DNA of 34,864 bases, taken from positions 1 through 34,864 of the forward strand of contig JAIXVP010000225.1 of assembly GCA_027482905.1 (NCBI GenBank), in the 5' to 3' direction. The stretch is from Opitutaceae bacterium (GTDB taxonomy: Bacteria; Verrucomicrobiota; Verrucomicrobiia; Opitutales; Opitutaceae). Below are positions 14,032 through 19,682 of this stretch, one piece after another. Below the pieces are notes generated by a model, which was not told the DNA's origin, did no database searches, and was given only the letters and a program-made list of their open reading frames with translations. The position numbers and the translations under genes were made by a program. Position 1 is the first letter of the stretch. The number at the start of each line of letters is the position of its first letter.

Positions 14032-14054
14032 GACCGGCGGCCCGCCGCCCGGTC
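14032..14054 (-). terminator. Hairpin at the end of the porin gene, possible terminator
   Basis: Plus-strand bases GACCGGCGG (14032-14040) can pair with CCGCCCGGTC (14045-14054) with one bulged C and a four-base loop. The hairpin overlaps the porin stop codon region and would be the end of the two-component locus. No U-run follows on the minus strand, so it could also just protect the 3' end of the messenger. Confidence 0.4.
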
Positions 14055-15411
14055 AGAAACGCACGCTCAACTGCACCGCCGCCGAGGGATTCAGCGATTC
14101 CGCCGCCGGCTGTTCATGCAGCACGCCCACCTGGGCTTTCAGCTGGGCGTTGGCCGCCAGACGCAAGGCCGGACCCGCCTCGAGCCGCCAGGCGTCGCGA
14201 CCCCAGCGCGCCTCGCCCCCGTCCGCCAGGCCGATCGGGACGAAGACTTGCTGGCTCCAGCGCGCGAAAACCGCCCAACGCGGCGAGACGCGCACCTTCG
14301 TCTCCAACGCATAGGCCAGGGTGTCGGCGTCCCCCAACCCCGGCACCGCGAAGCGCGCCGCCAGCGCCTCGCCCCAGAATTGGAAATGCCGCCACGCGTA
14401 GGTCAGGTCGAGGCCGGCCGTGGTTTGGGGGTGGTCGCCCCGGTCTCGTCCCACCCGAACCCGCCTCGCCCCCGGGGCGAGATAGGTCCCGTGCGCGACG
14501 GACAGCCCCAGCTCCCACGGCATGGCCGGCCGCCACCCCAGCCGGGCGGCCAGGGTCGGCTCCGCCCAGGCCTCCGCCGAACGGTCGTTCCACACGTCCG
14601 GTCGCGAGGAGAGCCCGCAATTCTTGAACTCCGCCGCGAGATCCCACCGGCCCGCTCCCGCCGCGACCGCCACCCCCGTGCCGTAGACCGCGCCCCACAT
14701 GATCGGGATGCGCAGTTCCTCGTCCTCGACCAGCGCCGCCGCGTCCCCGACCGGCGCGACATGCGCCCAACGCTCCAAAGTGGGCGCACGCCGGACCGCG
14801 GTGCCATCCCACAGCCCGGTCAGATTCTCCTGGGCCAGGGGGGCGGTGATGAAGGGGTAATCCCAGGCCGCATGGCGTTTCGCCCAACTGCCGAAAATCG
14901 TCGCGAACTGACCGGCCTGCACCACGAAACGCCGCTCCGGCCAGGGCGTGAACCGGAGCGCCGCCTCCTCCAGACGCAAGTCCAGCGGTTCGTCCGCCGG
15001 ATCAAAACCCCGGTCCGCCCGGAGCTGCGCCTGCGCGCGGATATGTTCGCCGATTCTCGCGTCGGCAAAGAGCAGCAGCACCGGACTGAACAACGTGTCC
15101 GCCTCGGGCCCGGTGTAGAGCAAATCGGCCGTCGGCTCGGGCACGAGATAGGTCGCGAGATCCAGCCGACCGGAAAACCTCAAACGCGCCGAGCCGTCCT
15201 CCGCCGCGAAATCAAGCGCACGCCCCACCTGGTCCGTGGCCTCGTCCCAATCCGCCCGCGCCACGCCGGCGTGCAGCAGGAGACCCGCGGCCACGACGGC
15301 GAGGAGCGGGCGAAAAGAAAGAGGGAGGAAACAAGTCACGGCGACCAAGGGGATGCGCGACGGGGCGTTTTCAGCATCGCCTCGTCGGTCCGCCCCGCAA
15401 GTCGCCGTCAT
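14053..15411 (-). CDS. Outer-membrane beta-barrel porin-like protein
   Basis: A 452-residue protein. ATG 15411 is chosen because AGGAG lies six bases upstream (15418-15422), the best ribosome site seen in this window. A long N-region precedes a signal peptide (SFRPLLAVVAAGLLLHAGVARA, cleavage before DWDEA near residue 53). The mature protein alternates hydrophobic and polar residues with many aromatic strand ends (RLRFSGRLDLATYLV, FVVQAGQFATIFGSWAKRH, AWRHFQFWGEALAARF) and ends in AVQLSVRF. A C-terminal Phe is the usual outer-membrane insertion signal. The phrase GQFATIFGSWAKRHAAWDYP is one I associate with unnamed porins near cupredoxin genes, but that is recollection. Probably the outer-membrane channel of the two-component locus; substrate unknown. 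Confidence 0.8.
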   Translation of the reverse strand: MTATCGADRRGDAENAPSRIPLVAVTCFLPLSFRPLLAVVAAGLLLHAGVARADWDEATDQVGRALDFAAEDGSARLRFSGRLDLATYLVPEPTADLLYTGPEADTLFSPVLLLFADARIGEHIRAQAQLRADRGFDPADEPLDLRLEEAALRFTPWPERRFVVQAGQFATIFGSWAKRHAAWDYPFITAPLAQENLTGLWDGTAVRRAPTLERWAHVAPVGDAAALVEDEELRIPIMWGAVYGTGVAVAAGAGRWDLAAEFKNCGLSSRPDVWNDRSAEAWAEPTLAARLGWRPAMPWELGLSVAHGTYLAPGARRVRVGRDRGDHPQTTAGLDLTYAWRHFQFWGEALAARFAVPGLGDADTLAYALETKVRVSPRWAVFARWSQQVFVPIGLADGGEARWGRDAWRLEAGPALRLAANAQLKAQVGVLHEQPAAESLNPSAAVQLSVRF

Positions 15412-15481: not shown

Positions 15482-16321
15482 TCAGGCGGGCGCAAACACC
15501 TCGGGTGGCGGCGGCTCCGTCAACCAGCGCGCGCGACCGGGTCCGGCCACCACCGCCGCCCGGGCCCGGCGCCGGGCCAGAAGGGCGAGCGTCTCCGGCG
15601 CGTCGGGCGCGAGCACGGCGATCCTCGCCAGCGCCGCCGCGTCCAGGGCCCGCGCGGCGAAGACCAGCACGGGCGCCGGCCCGCCTTTCTTCACGCCGCC
15701 GATCGCGGCCGCGCCGCTTCGGAGTTCGCCCAAGTCGGCGCGGATCGCCCCCGTGTCAGGCGAGTGGAGAAACAATCGTTCCGTGCGGCCTCGCACGCGC
15801 ACGACGTCGCCGGCCCGGACGGCGTAGTCCGGCGCGCCGCACCGGCCCAGCACAGCATGGACCCGGTCCAACGCATGCGCGGCGGCGAGATCGCCCGGTT
15901 CGAGATCAAGCGGCGCGAGCACGCGCAACCGTCGCCCCGTCAAAAGACGATACGCGTGCGCCAGGGTCGGCGCCCCGGGGGTCCCGCCGCCCCGCCGCAA
16001 ATCAAAACGGCCCGCGCTGCCGCGCGCCAAGGCGAGCGCCAGCCGGAGCACCACCCCCGTGCGAGGATCGAGAACAAGGGTGTCCCCCGGTTTGGCGGCA
16101 CGGAGACGCACGACGTCGTTGTCCGGCCTGTTCTCATCCCGAATCGATTCGCAACGAGCGATCTCAACCCGGGCGGCGGCGAGGGCCCTTCCGCGACCGG
16201 TCTCGGACCGCGCATCCAGCTCCAGTTGGATCCACGATTCGCAAGCCGGTCGCGCGCGCGACGTCCGGCGAAGGAAGCCGTCCGGTGACGGCACAACCAC
16301 GATGGACGGCGAACTCGACAT
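15482..16321 (-). CDS. Degenerate ApbE-like (FMN transferase fold) protein
   Basis: A 279-residue protein that I align by eye with ApbE, the FAD:protein FMN transferase. The order of segments matches: a helix-rich start (RALAAARVEIARCESIRDEN), LALALARGSAGRFDLRRGGG for the ApbE LARxTGGAFDPTVG, LDLEPGDLAAAHALDRVHAV for vDLGGIgKGYAVDRa, then YAVRAGDVVRVRG for vnaGGDvra.G. The strand VLVFAARALDAAALARIAVL stands in for the vtViAptAleADAldTalfvlG segment. The key residues are gone: the glycine pair of DLGG, the first Gly of GGD, the SG..R...iDPrTG block and the Asp-Thr of the metal site. There is no signal peptide. So it is either a non-catalytic relative or a new subfamily. An inverted repeat, a likely operator, lies 44 bases upstream. 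Confidence 0.6.
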   Translation of the reverse strand: MSSSPSIVVVPSPDGFLRRTSRARPACESWIQLELDARSETGRGRALAAARVEIARCESIRDENRPDNDVVRLRAAKPGDTLVLDPRTGVVLRLALALARGSAGRFDLRRGGGTPGAPTLAHAYRLLTGRRLRVLAPLDLEPGDLAAAHALDRVHAVLGRCGAPDYAVRAGDVVRVRGRTERLFLHSPDTGAIRADLGELRSGAAAIGGVKKGGPAPVLVFAARALDAAALARIAVLAPDAPETLALLARRRARAAVVAGPGRARWLTEPPPPEVFAPA

Positions 16322-16364: not shown

Positions 16365-16382
16365 CGTAACGGCGCGGTTACG
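16365..16382. promoter_or_regulatory. Inverted repeat CGTAAC-N6-GTTACG, candidate operator (site 2)
   Basis: Arms CGTAAC (16365-16370) and GTTACG (16377-16382) with a six-base spacer. On the minus strand the core reads GTAACCGCGCCGTTAC and matches 13 of 16 bases of the site at 19666-19681. It sits nine bases past the kinase stop and 44 bases before the ApbE-like start, where an internal promoter for the ApbE-like and porin genes would be. Inferred binding site for the response regulator. Confidence 0.55.
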
Positions 16383-16390
16383 AGACGCTC

Positions 16391-18121
16391 CTACCCGTCC
16401 GCCGTCTCCGGCAGCGTGAACTCGAAGACCGTCCACTCGGCGTCGGAACCAAGCAACCGCACGTCGCCGCCGTGCAAACGCGCGAGATGGCGCGCGAGAT
16501 CCAACCCGAGGCCGTAGCCGGGGGTATCGCCGCCCGCCTCGCCGCGATGGAAACGCTCGAAGATTCGCTCCCACGCCTCGGGCGGCACCGGGTGGGGGGC
16601 GGTGTTCGCGACGCGCAGCGCGACGTTCCCGGCGGCGCGCCCGGCCCACAACCGCACCCGGCCGCCGGGCCGGTTGTATTTGACCGCGTTCTCCAATAGA
16701 TTCTGCAACACGACCGTCAGATAACGTTCCTCGCCCGGCACCGGCAGCGAGCCCGCGATCTGGTTGTCCAGATCCAGCGCCTCCGCCGCCGGCAGCATGC
16801 TGGCGTCGTCGAGCGCGGTGGCCGCCACGGCCGCCAGGTCCACCGTCCCGGCGCGGACCCGCAGGATGCCCGCGTCGAGCCGGGAGAGCAGCAGCAGCGT
16901 GTCCAGGATGTGCGCGAGCCGGTCGGTCTGGCGGAGAAGCTCGCCCACCGCCTCGCCTCGTGGTGGCGCGGCGCCGCCGGCCCGGCCCAATTCCTCCAGA
17001 CCCAGCCGCAGAACCGCCACCGGGGTCTTGAGCTGATGCGAGGCGTCGGCCGCGAAACGGGCCGCACGCGCGAGCTCGGCCGAGGTGCGATCCAGCCGCG
17101 TCTCCGTCTCGCTCCGCAGCGCCCGTTGCGTCTCGGAGTCCCTCGCCAGCCGCCCGAACCAACCGGAAAAGCGTAGCGTGAGCAGGCCGCTGACCGCGCA
17201 GCCCGCGAGCACCAGAAACACCCCCGCCGCCGTGATTTGCCAGGTGATCGCACGCTGGCGCGCGATCAGGCCGTCCAGCGCGACGAGACGAATGCGGTGG
17301 ACCGCGGGATAGGCCTCGCCGGCGTTGACGGACTCGATCTCCAGGCGATGGGGCCGGCCCGCCAGTTCCAACTCCTCGATGGAGGCGTCCGGGCGGAGGG
17401 CGGGAAACCCGGCCAGGCGCCGCGCGAGGTCGGCCCGGATGGGCTCGGCCAAACCCGGGGCGTGCAAACGCCCGTCCACCCAAAGCGCGTGGGCGGAATC
17501 CGCCGGCGCCAAATCGACCGCAAATCCGAGGACCAACACGCCGAGCAGGCGCCCGGTTTCACGGGAAACAACGGGGACGGCAAGCAGTTCGGAGGCGCGG
17601 TCCGGTCCTTCGCCCGCGGCGGAAATCACCGCCCCGTAGGCCGGCCACCGGTCGAGACGGGCGGGCGCGAGCGCGGCGAGTTCATCGGCGCTCGCCTCCC
17701 CGGGGGCCGTCGGGGACACGGGCGGGATGAGCCGGCCCCGCGCGTCCAGAAACCGATAGAAACGGGCGCGGAGAGTGCGGACCGCGCCGGCATCCGGCGC
17801 CGGCGCGAAAAGATCCCGCAGCTCGTCGTCCGCCGCGAGGTAGAGCAGGTCGAGGGCGTCGTCCTCCAGCGCCGCGTGGATACGCGGCCGTCCGGCGAGG
17901 GCGCGGGCGCGGTCGGCCAGCGCCTCGCGACGCAGGCGCAACAGGGCCTGGGCGGCGGCAAACTCGGCCCGGTGCCCGCGATCCGCCTCCTCCGCCTGCG
18001 CCTGCCCCAGTTGCCCGCGCGCCGTCACGATCCCGGCCGCGACCACCAACGCCACGATCACGCTCATGGCCGCGAGCAGGCGGCGCGCGAAACGCCGGGT
18101 CTCCCGCGCCGCCGCCGGCAC
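16391..18121 (-). CDS. Membrane sensor histidine kinase with Cache-like periplasmic domain
   Basis: About 576 residues if started at GTG 18121, which has GAGG five bases upstream and lies just past the preceding stop; a TTG at 18172 or an ATG at 18066 are alternatives. TM1 is at about 16-33 (LLAAMSVIVALVVAAGIV) and TM2 at about 295-317 (ITAAGVFLVLAGCAVSGLL). Between them lies a ~255-residue periplasmic domain. The segment ELLAVPVVSRETGRLLGVLV resembles Cache sensor domains. The kinase core is complete: H-box ADASHQLKTPVAVL with His near 362, N-box LQNLLENAVKYNRPGG, G-box GYGLGLDLARHLARLHGG. It should autophosphorylate and pass phosphate to the regulator encoded upstream. The signal is unknown. 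Confidence 0.88.
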   Translation of the reverse strand: MPAAARETRRFARRLLAAMSVIVALVVAAGIVTARGQLGQAQAEEADRGHRAEFAAAQALLRLRREALADRARALAGRPRIHAALEDDALDLLYLAADDELRDLFAPAPDAGAVRTLRARFYRFLDARGRLIPPVSPTAPGEASADELAALAPARLDRWPAYGAVISAAGEGPDRASELLAVPVVSRETGRLLGVLVLGFAVDLAPADSAHALWVDGRLHAPGLAEPIRADLARRLAGFPALRPDASIEELELAGRPHRLEIESVNAGEAYPAVHRIRLVALDGLIARQRAITWQITAAGVFLVLAGCAVSGLLTLRFSGWFGRLARDSETQRALRSETETRLDRTSAELARAARFAADASHQLKTPVAVLRLGLEELGRAGGAAPPRGEAVGELLRQTDRLAHILDTLLLLSRLDAGILRVRAGTVDLAAVAATALDDASMLPAAEALDLDNQIAGSLPVPGEERYLTVVLQNLLENAVKYNRPGGRVRLWAGRAAGNVALRVANTAPHPVPPEAWERIFERFHRGEAGGDTPGYGLGLDLARHLARLHGGDVRLLGSDAEWTVFEFTLPETADG

Positions 18122-18128
18122 GACCGCC

Positions 18129-18788
18129 TCAGGGGAGATCGACACGAAGGGTTTGTCCGGCGGTGATTTCAACGGGAAGGGCGCGCGTGGTGCGGCTGTC
18201 GATCCAGGCCTTGAGGATGAACCGGCCCGCCGGCGCGCCTTCCAGGCGGAATCTGCCTTCGGCGTCGGTCACCGCGAAAAACGGCGTATCGAGCACGAGC
18301 ACGGCGGCGCGCATGTGCTCATGGATGTCGCAGCGCAGGGTCACCAGCCCCGCCTGGTCGAAGATCTGGAAGGGCGTCGCCGCCTCGTCCGCGCGGTAGC
18401 GACCGAGATCGAAGCGCTTCGGGCGCGAAAAGGAGAAGACGTTGTGATAGGTCTTGTCCTCGTTCGGGAATTCGACGCGCGTGCCCACCCGCACCGGCAG
18501 CAGACCGGGGATGAAGGCGAGATCGCGTTGCACGATGCGCGCGACCGGCGCGGCGACGTCCGGCGGAAAGGAGCCTTCAAGGTAGACCACCGCGCGGGGC
18601 GGGTCGGTCCGCACCAATCCGGGCTCGACGATCAATTCATAGCGAGAGCTCGGCTCCGGGACCGCCGCGGCGGCGGGCAGGGCCACGCGACCCTCCACCG
18701 CGCCGGTGGCGGGCGCGTTCTCCTCCGCAGGGACGCGGACGAAAAACAAGAGGCAGGAAAACAGAAGGCCGAGGCGGGGGAGGCGCAT
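18129..18788 (-). CDS. Secreted cupredoxin-like protein, plastocyanin/MauL-like
   Basis: 219 residues from ATG 18788; a TTG at 18815 would overlap the regulator stop. Signal peptide at 1 to about 20 (LPRLGLLFSCLLFFV). The middle is a cupredoxin-like fold: VRVGTRVEFPNEDKTYHNVF with His115, then VTLRCDIHEHMRAAVLVLD with Cys153, His156, His158 and Met159. His, Cys, His and Met in this order are the ligands of type 1 blue copper sites. The C-terminal third (FAVTDAEGRFRLEGAPAGRF) looks like a small carboxypeptidase-regulatory-like beta-sandwich. Proteins of this type are often annotated as methylamine-utilization (MauL-like), but no other mau gene is here. It sits between the regulator and kinase genes, so it may be a periplasmic partner of the sensor or a copper/electron carrier. 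Confidence 0.75.
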   Translation of the reverse strand: MRLPRLGLLFSCLLFFVRVPAEENAPATGAVEGRVALPAAAAVPEPSSRYELIVEPGLVRTDPPRAVVYLEGSFPPDVAAPVARIVQRDLAFIPGLLPVRVGTRVEFPNEDKTYHNVFSFSRPKRFDLGRYRADEAATPFQIFDQAGLVTLRCDIHEHMRAAVLVLDTPFFAVTDAEGRFRLEGAPAGRFILKAWIDSRTTRALPVEITAGQTLRVDLP

Positions 18789-18811
18789 GGACGGAAAGGC
18801 GGGGACCGGTT

Positions 18812-19498
18812 TCAACCCGCGGGCGGCCGGACCTGGAGGACGTAGCCGACGGAGCGCACGGTGTGGATCAGGGCGGGCAGTCCGGGCGGATCGATTTTTC
18901 GCCGCAACCGGGTGACCAGAATTTCCACCGTGCGCGTGTCATACCGGTGATCGCGCCGCCAGATGCGCTCGGTGATCTCGGCCCGGGAGAACACTCTTCC
19001 CGGCTCGAGCATGAGCAGGTGGAGGAGCTCGAATTCGCGCGGGGTGAGCTCCACCGGCCGGCTCGCCCGCGTGACCTGCCGGGAGGCCACGTCGGCGTGC
19101 AGATCCGCCACCGCGAGCCGCTGGACCGCCGCCACCGGCGCGCCGCGGCGGCCCAGCGCCTGCACCCGCGCGACCAGCTCCTCCAGCGCGAAGGGTTTGG
19201 CCAGGTAGTCGTCCGCCCCGGCGTTGAGGCCCGCCACCCGGTCCTCGATGTCGCCCCGGGCGGTGATGATGAGCACCCGGGCGAAGCACTTGGCCTCGCG
19301 CAGCCGGGCCAGGACCCGAAGTCCGTCCAACGAGGGCAGATTCAGATCGAGGACGACCAGATCGGGCCGCTCCGCCAAAACCAACGCCACCGCCTCCGCC
19401 CCGTCGTGCGTCGCCCGCACCTCGTGTCGCTCGCGCCGCAGGGCCGCGACGACGTGGCGCGAGAGCGCGAGTTCGTCTTCGACCACGAGGATGACCAT
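18812..19498 (-). CDS. OmpR/PhoB-family response regulator
   Basis: 228 residues. Receiver domain 1-115 with acidic pair E7/D8 (VVEDEL), phospho-acceptor Asp51 (VVLDLNLPSLDGL), Thr79 (IITARGD) and Lys101 (DDYLAKPF). The winged-helix DNA-binding domain at about 130-225 has VELTPREFELLHLLM, RVFSRAEITERIW, TRTVEILVTRLRRKID and VRSVGYVL. All residues for phosphorylation and DNA binding are present, so it should be a transcription activator or repressor. It is the first gene of the run regulator, cupredoxin, kinase, ApbE-like, porin. A 16-base near-palindrome lies 167 bases upstream and again before the ApbE-like gene; these are candidate binding sites. The reading frame stays open upstream into murJ, but ATG 19498 starts exactly at the receiver domain. 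Confidence 0.92.
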   Translation of the reverse strand: MVILVVEDELALSRHVVAALRRERHEVRATHDGAEAVALVLAERPDLVVLDLNLPSLDGLRVLARLREAKCFARVLIITARGDIEDRVAGLNAGADDYLAKPFALEELVARVQALGRRGAPVAAVQRLAVADLHADVASRQVTRASRPVELTPREFELLHLLMLEPGRVFSRAEITERIWRRDHRYDTRTVEILVTRLRRKIDPPGLPALIHTVRSVGYVLQVRPPAG

Positions 19499-19677
19499 GA
19501 AGGGATCGCTAACCGAACCGGGGCCGGGCGCAAGCGCGTCGCCGGCGGGCGATTCGGGCGGCGCGGAAAAACAAGGAGGGCACGTGGCAATCATGGCGGA
19601 CGCGGGCGTGGTTGCCCGCCGAACTCCAGCCTCGGCTCCGGACTCCGCCGGGAAAGGCCGAGATGGTAACCGGAACG
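19499..19677. other. Leader region between murJ and the response regulator gene
   Basis: 179 bases with no gene. It contains a perfect hairpin, GCGGGC (19602-19607) and GCCCGC (19614-19619) with a six-base loop, but no U-run. This is either a weak end for the murJ transcript or a regulator leader structure. The candidate operator at 19665-19682 overlaps its upstream edge. I see no convincing -35/-10 pair. Confidence 0.35.
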
Positions 19678-19682
19678 TTACC
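19665..19682. promoter_or_regulatory. Inverted repeat GGTAAC-N6-GTTACC, candidate operator (site 1)
   Basis: Arms GGTAAC (19665-19670) and GTTACC (19677-19682) with a six-base spacer. The core GTAACCGGAACGTTAC matches site 2 (16366-16381, minus strand) at 13 of 16 positions. It overlaps the murJ stop codon and lies 167 bases upstream of the response regulator start, so it could control the whole two-component locus. Inferred binding site of the regulator. Confidence 0.55.

Follow-up and report, generated by a model that had tools for sequence, protein, structure and literature searches.

Inverted repeats are known targets of response regulators of the OmpR type. AgrR of Cupriavidus metallidurans recognizes an inverted 6-4-6 repeat, ATKACA-N4-TGTMAT, and CopR and PcoR are cited as further inverted-repeat cases in the same report (PMC7380067). 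The Pseudomonas regulators CusR, CopR and CzcR share one common palindrome; the preferred box of Escherichia coli CusR is AAAATGACAAnnTTGTCATTTT and the palindrome of P. paraeruginosa is ATTCATnnATGTAAT (PMC11195947). E. coli CusR and HprR have a common target (PMC8249747), and RsrR of Acidithiobacillus caldus, termed EnvZ-OmpR-like, binds a 19-bp inverted repeat (PMC9861516). DUF3570 proteins are reported to be flavinylated by ApbE; the clusters that encode them also encode a thioredoxin-like protein and DUF4266 (PMC8238504). Here we examine a contig of 34,864 nucleotides from an Opitutaceae bacterium (JAIXVP010000225.1, assembly GCA_027482905.1; this whole stretch is called the window), in which two near-identical palindromes, sites A and B, flank the genes of a two-component system and a cupredoxin-like protein. 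It is highly probable, judging from sequence comparison, that these palindromes are operators of the OmpR-family regulator encoded between them, with site B serving autoregulation and site A belonging to a promoter of the ApbE-like and porin-like genes. The elements on which this proposal turns are, in window coordinates:

16366..16381, minus strand: proposed operator site A; toward the ApbE-like and porin-like genes it reads GTAACCGCGCCGTTAC
19666..19681, minus strand: proposed operator site B; toward the regulator it reads GTAACGTTCCGGTTAC; it overlaps the MurJ stop codon (19678-19680)
18812..19498, minus strand: OmpR-family response regulator (receiver plus winged-helix DNA-binding domain), the proposed binder; Pfam Response_reg 3.6e-28, Trans_reg_C 3.1e-26

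The plus-strand letters at 19666-19681 are GTAACCGGAACGTTAC, and they equal the minus-strand letters at 16366-16381 at 13 of 16 bases, as had been claimed in an earlier note on this DNA. That note gave the repeats 6-base arms and a 6-base spacer; the actual layout is 5+6+5, since in neither site are positions 6 and 11 complementary, and the shared pattern is GTAAC-N6-GTTAC, 16 bp with arms of five bases and a spacer of six. By base composition, 0.0064 exact copies are expected in the window. A window scan allowing up to three mismatches gave eight hits compared with 5.4 expected; four of these are sites A and B on both strands and the other four all have three mismatches, which agrees with the note that the window holds no third copy. 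Its account of the placement also holds: site B lies 167 bp upstream of the regulator ATG (19498), and site A, 3.3 kb away, lies 9 bp after the kinase stop codon and 44 bp ahead of the ApbE-like ATG (16321).

The exact pattern is rare in the host. The assembly (4.35 Mb, 86.85% complete, 457 contigs) holds two exact copies, which are sites A and B, and has no exact match to a reversed control pattern. Many random hits across the genome had been named beforehand as an outcome that would speak against the proposal, and they did not appear. With up to one mismatch there were 18 matches compared with 20 for the control pattern, so only the exact pair stands out and no more host targets can be named.

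Conservation in relatives carries most of the argument. Any exact match was present in 33 of 57 genomes searched (own genome included). Within this set, an exact site adjoins the cluster in each of the six genomes whose cupredoxin is a close orthologue (E ≤ 3.8e-75; the own genome G000, G008, which is of the same genus as the window, G017, G021, G027 and G031), and two exact sites beside the cluster were found in the window and in the G021 locus. We also compared 80 named loci (953 kb) fetched by cupredoxin, the best 80 of 132, whose titles include Opitutaceae, Spartobacteria, Chthoniobacterales, Udaeobacter and other Verrucomicrobiota. In an unbiased scan of these loci, all 5-mer inverted repeats with spacers of 0 to 12 were ranked against the base-composition expectation. 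GTAAC with a spacer of 6 came first, with 64 observed compared with 0.45 expected, in 49 of 80 loci. The next ranks (AGTAA/8, AAAGT/12 and TAACA/4) look like extensions of the same motif, and the extended motif gives a soft consensus, AAAGTAACA-N4-TGTTACTTT, that holds for part of the relatives. An exact site lay in the core zone of 42 of the 80 loci, whereas each of the other 59 letter permutations of the half-site did so in three loci at most, as counted with fixed similarity thresholds. Loss of the sites in close relatives, the second outcome that the earlier note had put forward as damaging, is therefore not what we see.

The association extends to whole genomes. Among 252 genomes, a narrower pattern, GTAACRNNNNYGTTAC, was carried by 62 of 67 with the cupredoxin (E ≤ 1e-40) and by 36 of 185 without it (Fisher p 4e-27, a value that overstates independence because the genomes are related). 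Mean numbers of sites per genome were 2.24 and 0.26, respectively, compared with 0.48 and 0.43 for a control pattern. Sites A and B themselves fall outside the narrower pattern, so the host genome was counted as a miss. All three cupredoxin-positive genomes without the regulator (presence set at E ≤ 1e-60) carry the pattern.

These figures bear on whether the pair could be two unrelated palindromes that lie near each other by chance. In favour of this, the base composition of the window predicts about 0.8 exact sites for a genome as large as that of the host. However, two random genome sites would fall within 3.3 kb of each other with a probability near 0.0015, and the conservation in the six clusters, the 80-locus scan, the core zone and the 252 genomes is far above chance. 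Given this conservation and the rarity of the exact pair in the host genome, we reject coincidence, for which we leave only a negligible probability.

Most sites stand ahead of gene starts. We counted 73 sites with locus L065 or 72 without it (L065 is on the same contig as L135), drawn from the 80 named loci, the window, L062-L066 and L070. Genes were called by a crude homology-weighted choice of open reading frames (ORFs), so some gene starts will be wrong. By these crude calls, the neighbouring gene points away from the site at 70 of 73 sites, and an outward-facing gene start lies within 150 bp of 55 of 72 sites, compared with 11.7% of random positions in the same loci. After exclusion of sites with starts on both sides or neither side, sites near a contig end, repeats of identical stretches and L065, 54 oriented sites remained, which were thinned to 46. 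Among these, T occurs at +18 in 83% and at +26 in 74%. Site A shares both of these T residues with many relatives. Site B, in the orientation of the regulator gene, shares with many of them T at +18 and a CTTT block at +25 to +28 (19653-19656). A at +50 together with T at +54, a -10-like pair, occurs in 17 of 46 compared with 2.4 expected; the pair was noticed in the profile first and counted later, and the sequences are related, so this is a lead and not a test. The arrangement is consistent with a palindrome whose centre lies near -53, ahead of the -35 and -10 elements, if the transcription start lies where we infer it from the sequence. Separately, loci L109, L155 and L168 have a second shared element, GTCTAACCTTGTAACG (TATAACG in L168), about 50 bp after the first site and ahead of the gene of a small repetitive protein.

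Palindromes that stand between genes might also be intrinsic, perhaps two-way, terminators, hairpins with A and T tracts at which the porin, kinase or MurJ transcripts end. Many relatives' sites do lie 10-30 bp after a stop codon, and some sites have AAA and TTT on their flanks. However, pairing in the central hexamer, found in 18, 19 and 18 of 54, shows no clear excess over shuffles (19.3, 15.1 and 16.0), and GTAAC outdoes all permutations of its own letters, which indicates that the sequence is kept and not pairing alone. By the crude gene calls, sites in L135, L131 and L145 stand between divergent genes. The pattern is found nowhere else in the host assembly, and neither window copy has a T tract. 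The lack of clear excess pairing in the hexamer, the constant half-site letters, the sites between divergent genes and the rarity of the pattern in the genome together lead us to set this reading aside as very unlikely.

Geometry is one link between the operator reading and the regulator encoded between the sites: in the window and in relatives, the site is a 16-bp inverted repeat with half-sites about one helical turn apart, the same geometry as in the AgrR, CusR and CopR boxes. A further paired base, the sixth (A and T), occurs in 24 of 72 sites but is missing from the window copies. Another link comes from 11 regulator loci, of which ten were fetched (from nine of the ten regulator-positive, cupredoxin-negative genomes and from G212) and L070 stands for the tenth genome, G026. 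A site with at most one mismatch occurs in seven of them (L201-L205, L208 and L070). L201-L204 span two genera and gave no cupredoxin match; each has a one-mismatch site 58-76 bp ahead of its regulator gene. In A+T-richer DNA like that of these loci, one-mismatch sites are frequent by chance, about 0.3 per 11 kb at 50% G+C or about 0.006 per 200 bp, so it is the place that matters. The kinase is matched in its catalytic part alone in L201, L203 and L204, and the L202 contig stops right after the regulator. That the site stays before the regulator where the cupredoxin is gone is the best evidence that the regulator, and not something tied to the cupredoxin, reads it.

The same loci bear on the idea that another regulator, encoded elsewhere, binds the sites and controls the cluster together with its regulon. 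Sites in 36 of the 185 cupredoxin-negative genomes, and clusters that have no site, would suit such a factor. The persistence of the site in L201-L204, the regulator gene standing itself behind 5 of 72 sites, and a geometry that matches reported OmpR-type boxes all argue against it, and we consider it unlikely. In L201 (788-803) and L202 (5296-5311), a C/G pair instead of A/T flanks the spacer (TAACC-N4-GGTTAC), and in L203 and L204 it does so on one side only; this is possibly a shift in regulator specificity.

Several observations weigh against regulation by the adjacent protein. Neither window site has A or T beside its arms, although 63 of 72 sites have it on at least one side. Only two of the ten regulator-positive genomes without the cupredoxin (at 1e-40) carry the narrower pattern, and four of the 11 regulator loci (L206, L207, L209 and L210) lack a site with at most one mismatch; three of these (L207, L209 and L210) contain cupredoxin sequence. 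In G044, whose cupredoxin is more distant (9.9e-44), the surrounding 20 kb hold no site (L067). No site with at most one mismatch lies near the core genes in 21 of the 62 loci that extend at least 200 nt past the distal end, although in four of these (L124, L137, L164 and L166) a site lies farther off. Lastly, the relatives cannot be counted as independent in the statistical sense. On balance, a real conserved operator with the adjacent regulator as its reader appears the most likely explanation of the sequence data.

If so, a dimer of the regulator, presumably phosphorylated by the adjacent kinase, would bind both GTAAC half-sites from the same side of the double helix, immediately before a weak -35 region; most likely it would act as an activator of transcription. 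The signal may be copper or redox state. Site B would control the regulator, cupredoxin and kinase genes, which amounts to autoregulation, and site A would control the ApbE-like and porin-like genes. The regulator gene is directly behind 5 of 72 sites and the cupredoxin gene behind three. In relatives, sites stand before the regulator gene in L135, L131, L177, L123 and L180 and, with one mismatch, in L201-L204, a recurrence that fits autoregulation. The suggestion of autoregulation plus an internal ApbE/porin promoter, made from the window alone, thus gains support from these comparisons.

Elsewhere in Verrucomicrobiota, the orthologous regulator would run an envelope and extracellular regulon with many electron-transfer proteins. 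Behind the sites are genes for DUF3570, a TIGR03118 protein, cytochrome c, a haem-binding protein, two plastocyanin-type Copper-bind proteins, a Ferritin_2 protein, and Ig-domain and repeat proteins. DUF3570 is preceded by a site in five loci (L062, L101, L124, L137 and L138) and in four further places (L227, L229, L230 and L238). Poorer fits to such a regulon are a PAS histidine kinase (L159), a PQQ_2 protein (L106) and a polysaccharide deacetylase that is divergent from the regulator (L131). The same holds for Pfam-less proteins behind sites in L070 (two) and L066 (one), for one in L112 that points toward its site, and for the proteins behind sites in L109 and L174, which have sub-threshold Pfam matches only. 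A further 18 sites were picked by hand, partly within 4 kb of a cluster, and 10 neighbour proteins were scanned. They include DUF3570, three multihaem cytochromes that have paired CXXCH motifs, CHRD, PEP-CTERM and Ig-domain proteins, CotH, an aldehyde dehydrogenase and a protein that matches nothing. Among all target proteins scanned, none for copper efflux turned up. In L170 (12344-16047), four GTAAC palindromes occur in 3.7 kb, each before its own gene (two plastocyanin-like, one cytochrome c and one of the TIGR03118 cluster), a string that resembles single-gene units under one regulator.

All five cluster genes of the window, from the regulator to the porin-like gene, are on the minus strand, with MurJ upstream and an SBF-like transporter downstream. 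The four that accompany the regulator are:

18129..18788, minus strand: cupredoxin-like protein, so named from its predicted fold, with a C-terminal carboxypeptidase-regulatory-like domain; CarboxypepD_reg is below cut-off
16391..18172, minus strand: sensor histidine kinase with a predicted periplasmic double-PAS (dCache-like) sensor; HisKA and HATPase_c
15482..16321, minus strand: ApbE-like protein, first gene past site A; Pfam ApbE 1.2e-6, 28.7 bits, cut-off 25.6
14053..15411, minus strand: porin-like protein, a kept partner of the kinase in relatives; the label 'porin' comes from the earlier note

The regulator belongs to the OmpR/PhoB type, with receiver and Trans_reg_C domains both far over the Pfam cut-off and D51 at the usual aspartate position (numbering as in AgrR D51). 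It scores 194.2 bits with the NCBIfam heavy-metal model TIGR01387 (cztR_silR_copR; cut-off 279.2) and is under the cut-off of every NCBIfam family in the best 25 of 101, that model included. Three orthologues (L064, L065 and L168) score 206.0, 210.3 and 212.5 bits, also under the cut-off; TIGR01387 is the top model for all three and the third for the window regulator. Among the matches listed, the 25 nearest plasmid relatives have 46-48% identity, and 13 of them are annotated as heavy-metal regulators.

By fold search, the model of the cupredoxin resembles amicyanin and plastocyanin, and it is this search that gave the class, as a profile search of solved structures returned weak matches only. 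The protein is probably exported, to judge from its N-terminus. The residues H115, C153, H156, H158 and M159 do not vary among 46 sequences, one from the window and the others from 45 of the 80 loci, and a cupredoxin fold with these invariant residues is an indirect hint of a copper-responsive two-component system. Two further paralogues in the host genome (C430:25094-25642 and C448:1267-1683; loci L073 and L074) have 40 and 44% identity to the window cupredoxin, and their surroundings (18 and 12 kb) hold no GTAAC palindrome with at most one mismatch. The modelled kinase sensor (predicted local distance difference test score 89) has dCache-type matches with query-length TM-scores of at most 0.46 among the 50 listed; the predicted structure places it in the double-PAS (dCache-like) class, an assignment of fold and not of ligand. 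The ApbE-like protein, perhaps a diverged form, has no match in an NCBIfam scan at 0.001, and its Pfam score of 28.7 bits compares with 247.1 for the L101 ApbE. The porin-like protein has no match in a Pfam scan, and its homologues adjoin the kinase in L062, L063, L064 and L066 (42-45% identity).

A broader picture is possible, although we hold it only tentatively. In a three-part system spread through the phylum, the periplasmic blue-copper-like protein, whose gene adjoins those of regulator and kinase, might signal copper or redox state to the dCache-type kinase, and the regulator might use GTAAC palindromes to switch on envelope flavin, haem and copper electron-transfer proteins (DUF3570/ApbE, multihaem cytochromes and plastocyanins). 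If true, Verrucomicrobiota would have a candidate regulator dedicated to extracytosolic electron transfer. Apart from this picture, our findings offer an operator sequence and a regulon that can be tested for a two-component system common in Verrucomicrobiota, and they tie little-understood envelope proteins (cupredoxin, DUF3570/ApbE, multihaem cytochromes, TIGR03118, ferritin-like and Ig-domain proteins) to one likely signal.

The closest described systems share much with this one. The earlier note had taken an inverted site for a point of interest, as OmpR-type proteins more often use direct repeats; the idea that such a site is odd for the family does not agree with the inverted repeats or palindromes reported for AgrR, CusR, CopR and PcoR (PMC7380067, PMC11195947). 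As with AgrR, for which positive autoregulation is reported (PMC7380067), an OmpR-type regulator is proposed to read a 16-bp inverted repeat, and the relatives' consensus, GTAACA-N4-TGTTAC, has T, A, C and A of each half-site in common with the AgrR box. The outer bases differ (GTAACA compared with ATKACA), and the window copies lack the sixth paired base; moreover, AgrR is a silver-resistance regulator, whereas the genes here encode envelope proteins and the site is a predicted one. The ACA-N4-TGT core and the AAA/TTT flanks of the soft consensus recall the reported E. coli CusR box, and, as with CusR, CopR and CzcR, the regulator is proposed to control its own gene and its neighbours. Unlike the CusR box, the half-site has GTAACA in place of ATGACA, and the regulator here is under the cut-off of the curated heavy-metal model. 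As in the flavinylation clusters (PMC8238504), 17 of the 87 loci compared have members of both the DUF3570 and the ApbE family, always alongside the thioredoxin-like or DUF4266 family; in the window, no ORF falls in the DUF3570 family and the ApbE-like gene is weak. In the main text of that report, the word 'cupredoxin' is absent and 'two-component' appears once. A literature text search for the motif in four spellings returned no paper, and, judged by title, none of the papers listed on Verrucomicrobia or Opitutaceae regulators concerns this system. The proposed operator is thus of a kind already known; what is new, to the extent that the literature searched shows, is its sequence, its lineage and its regulon.

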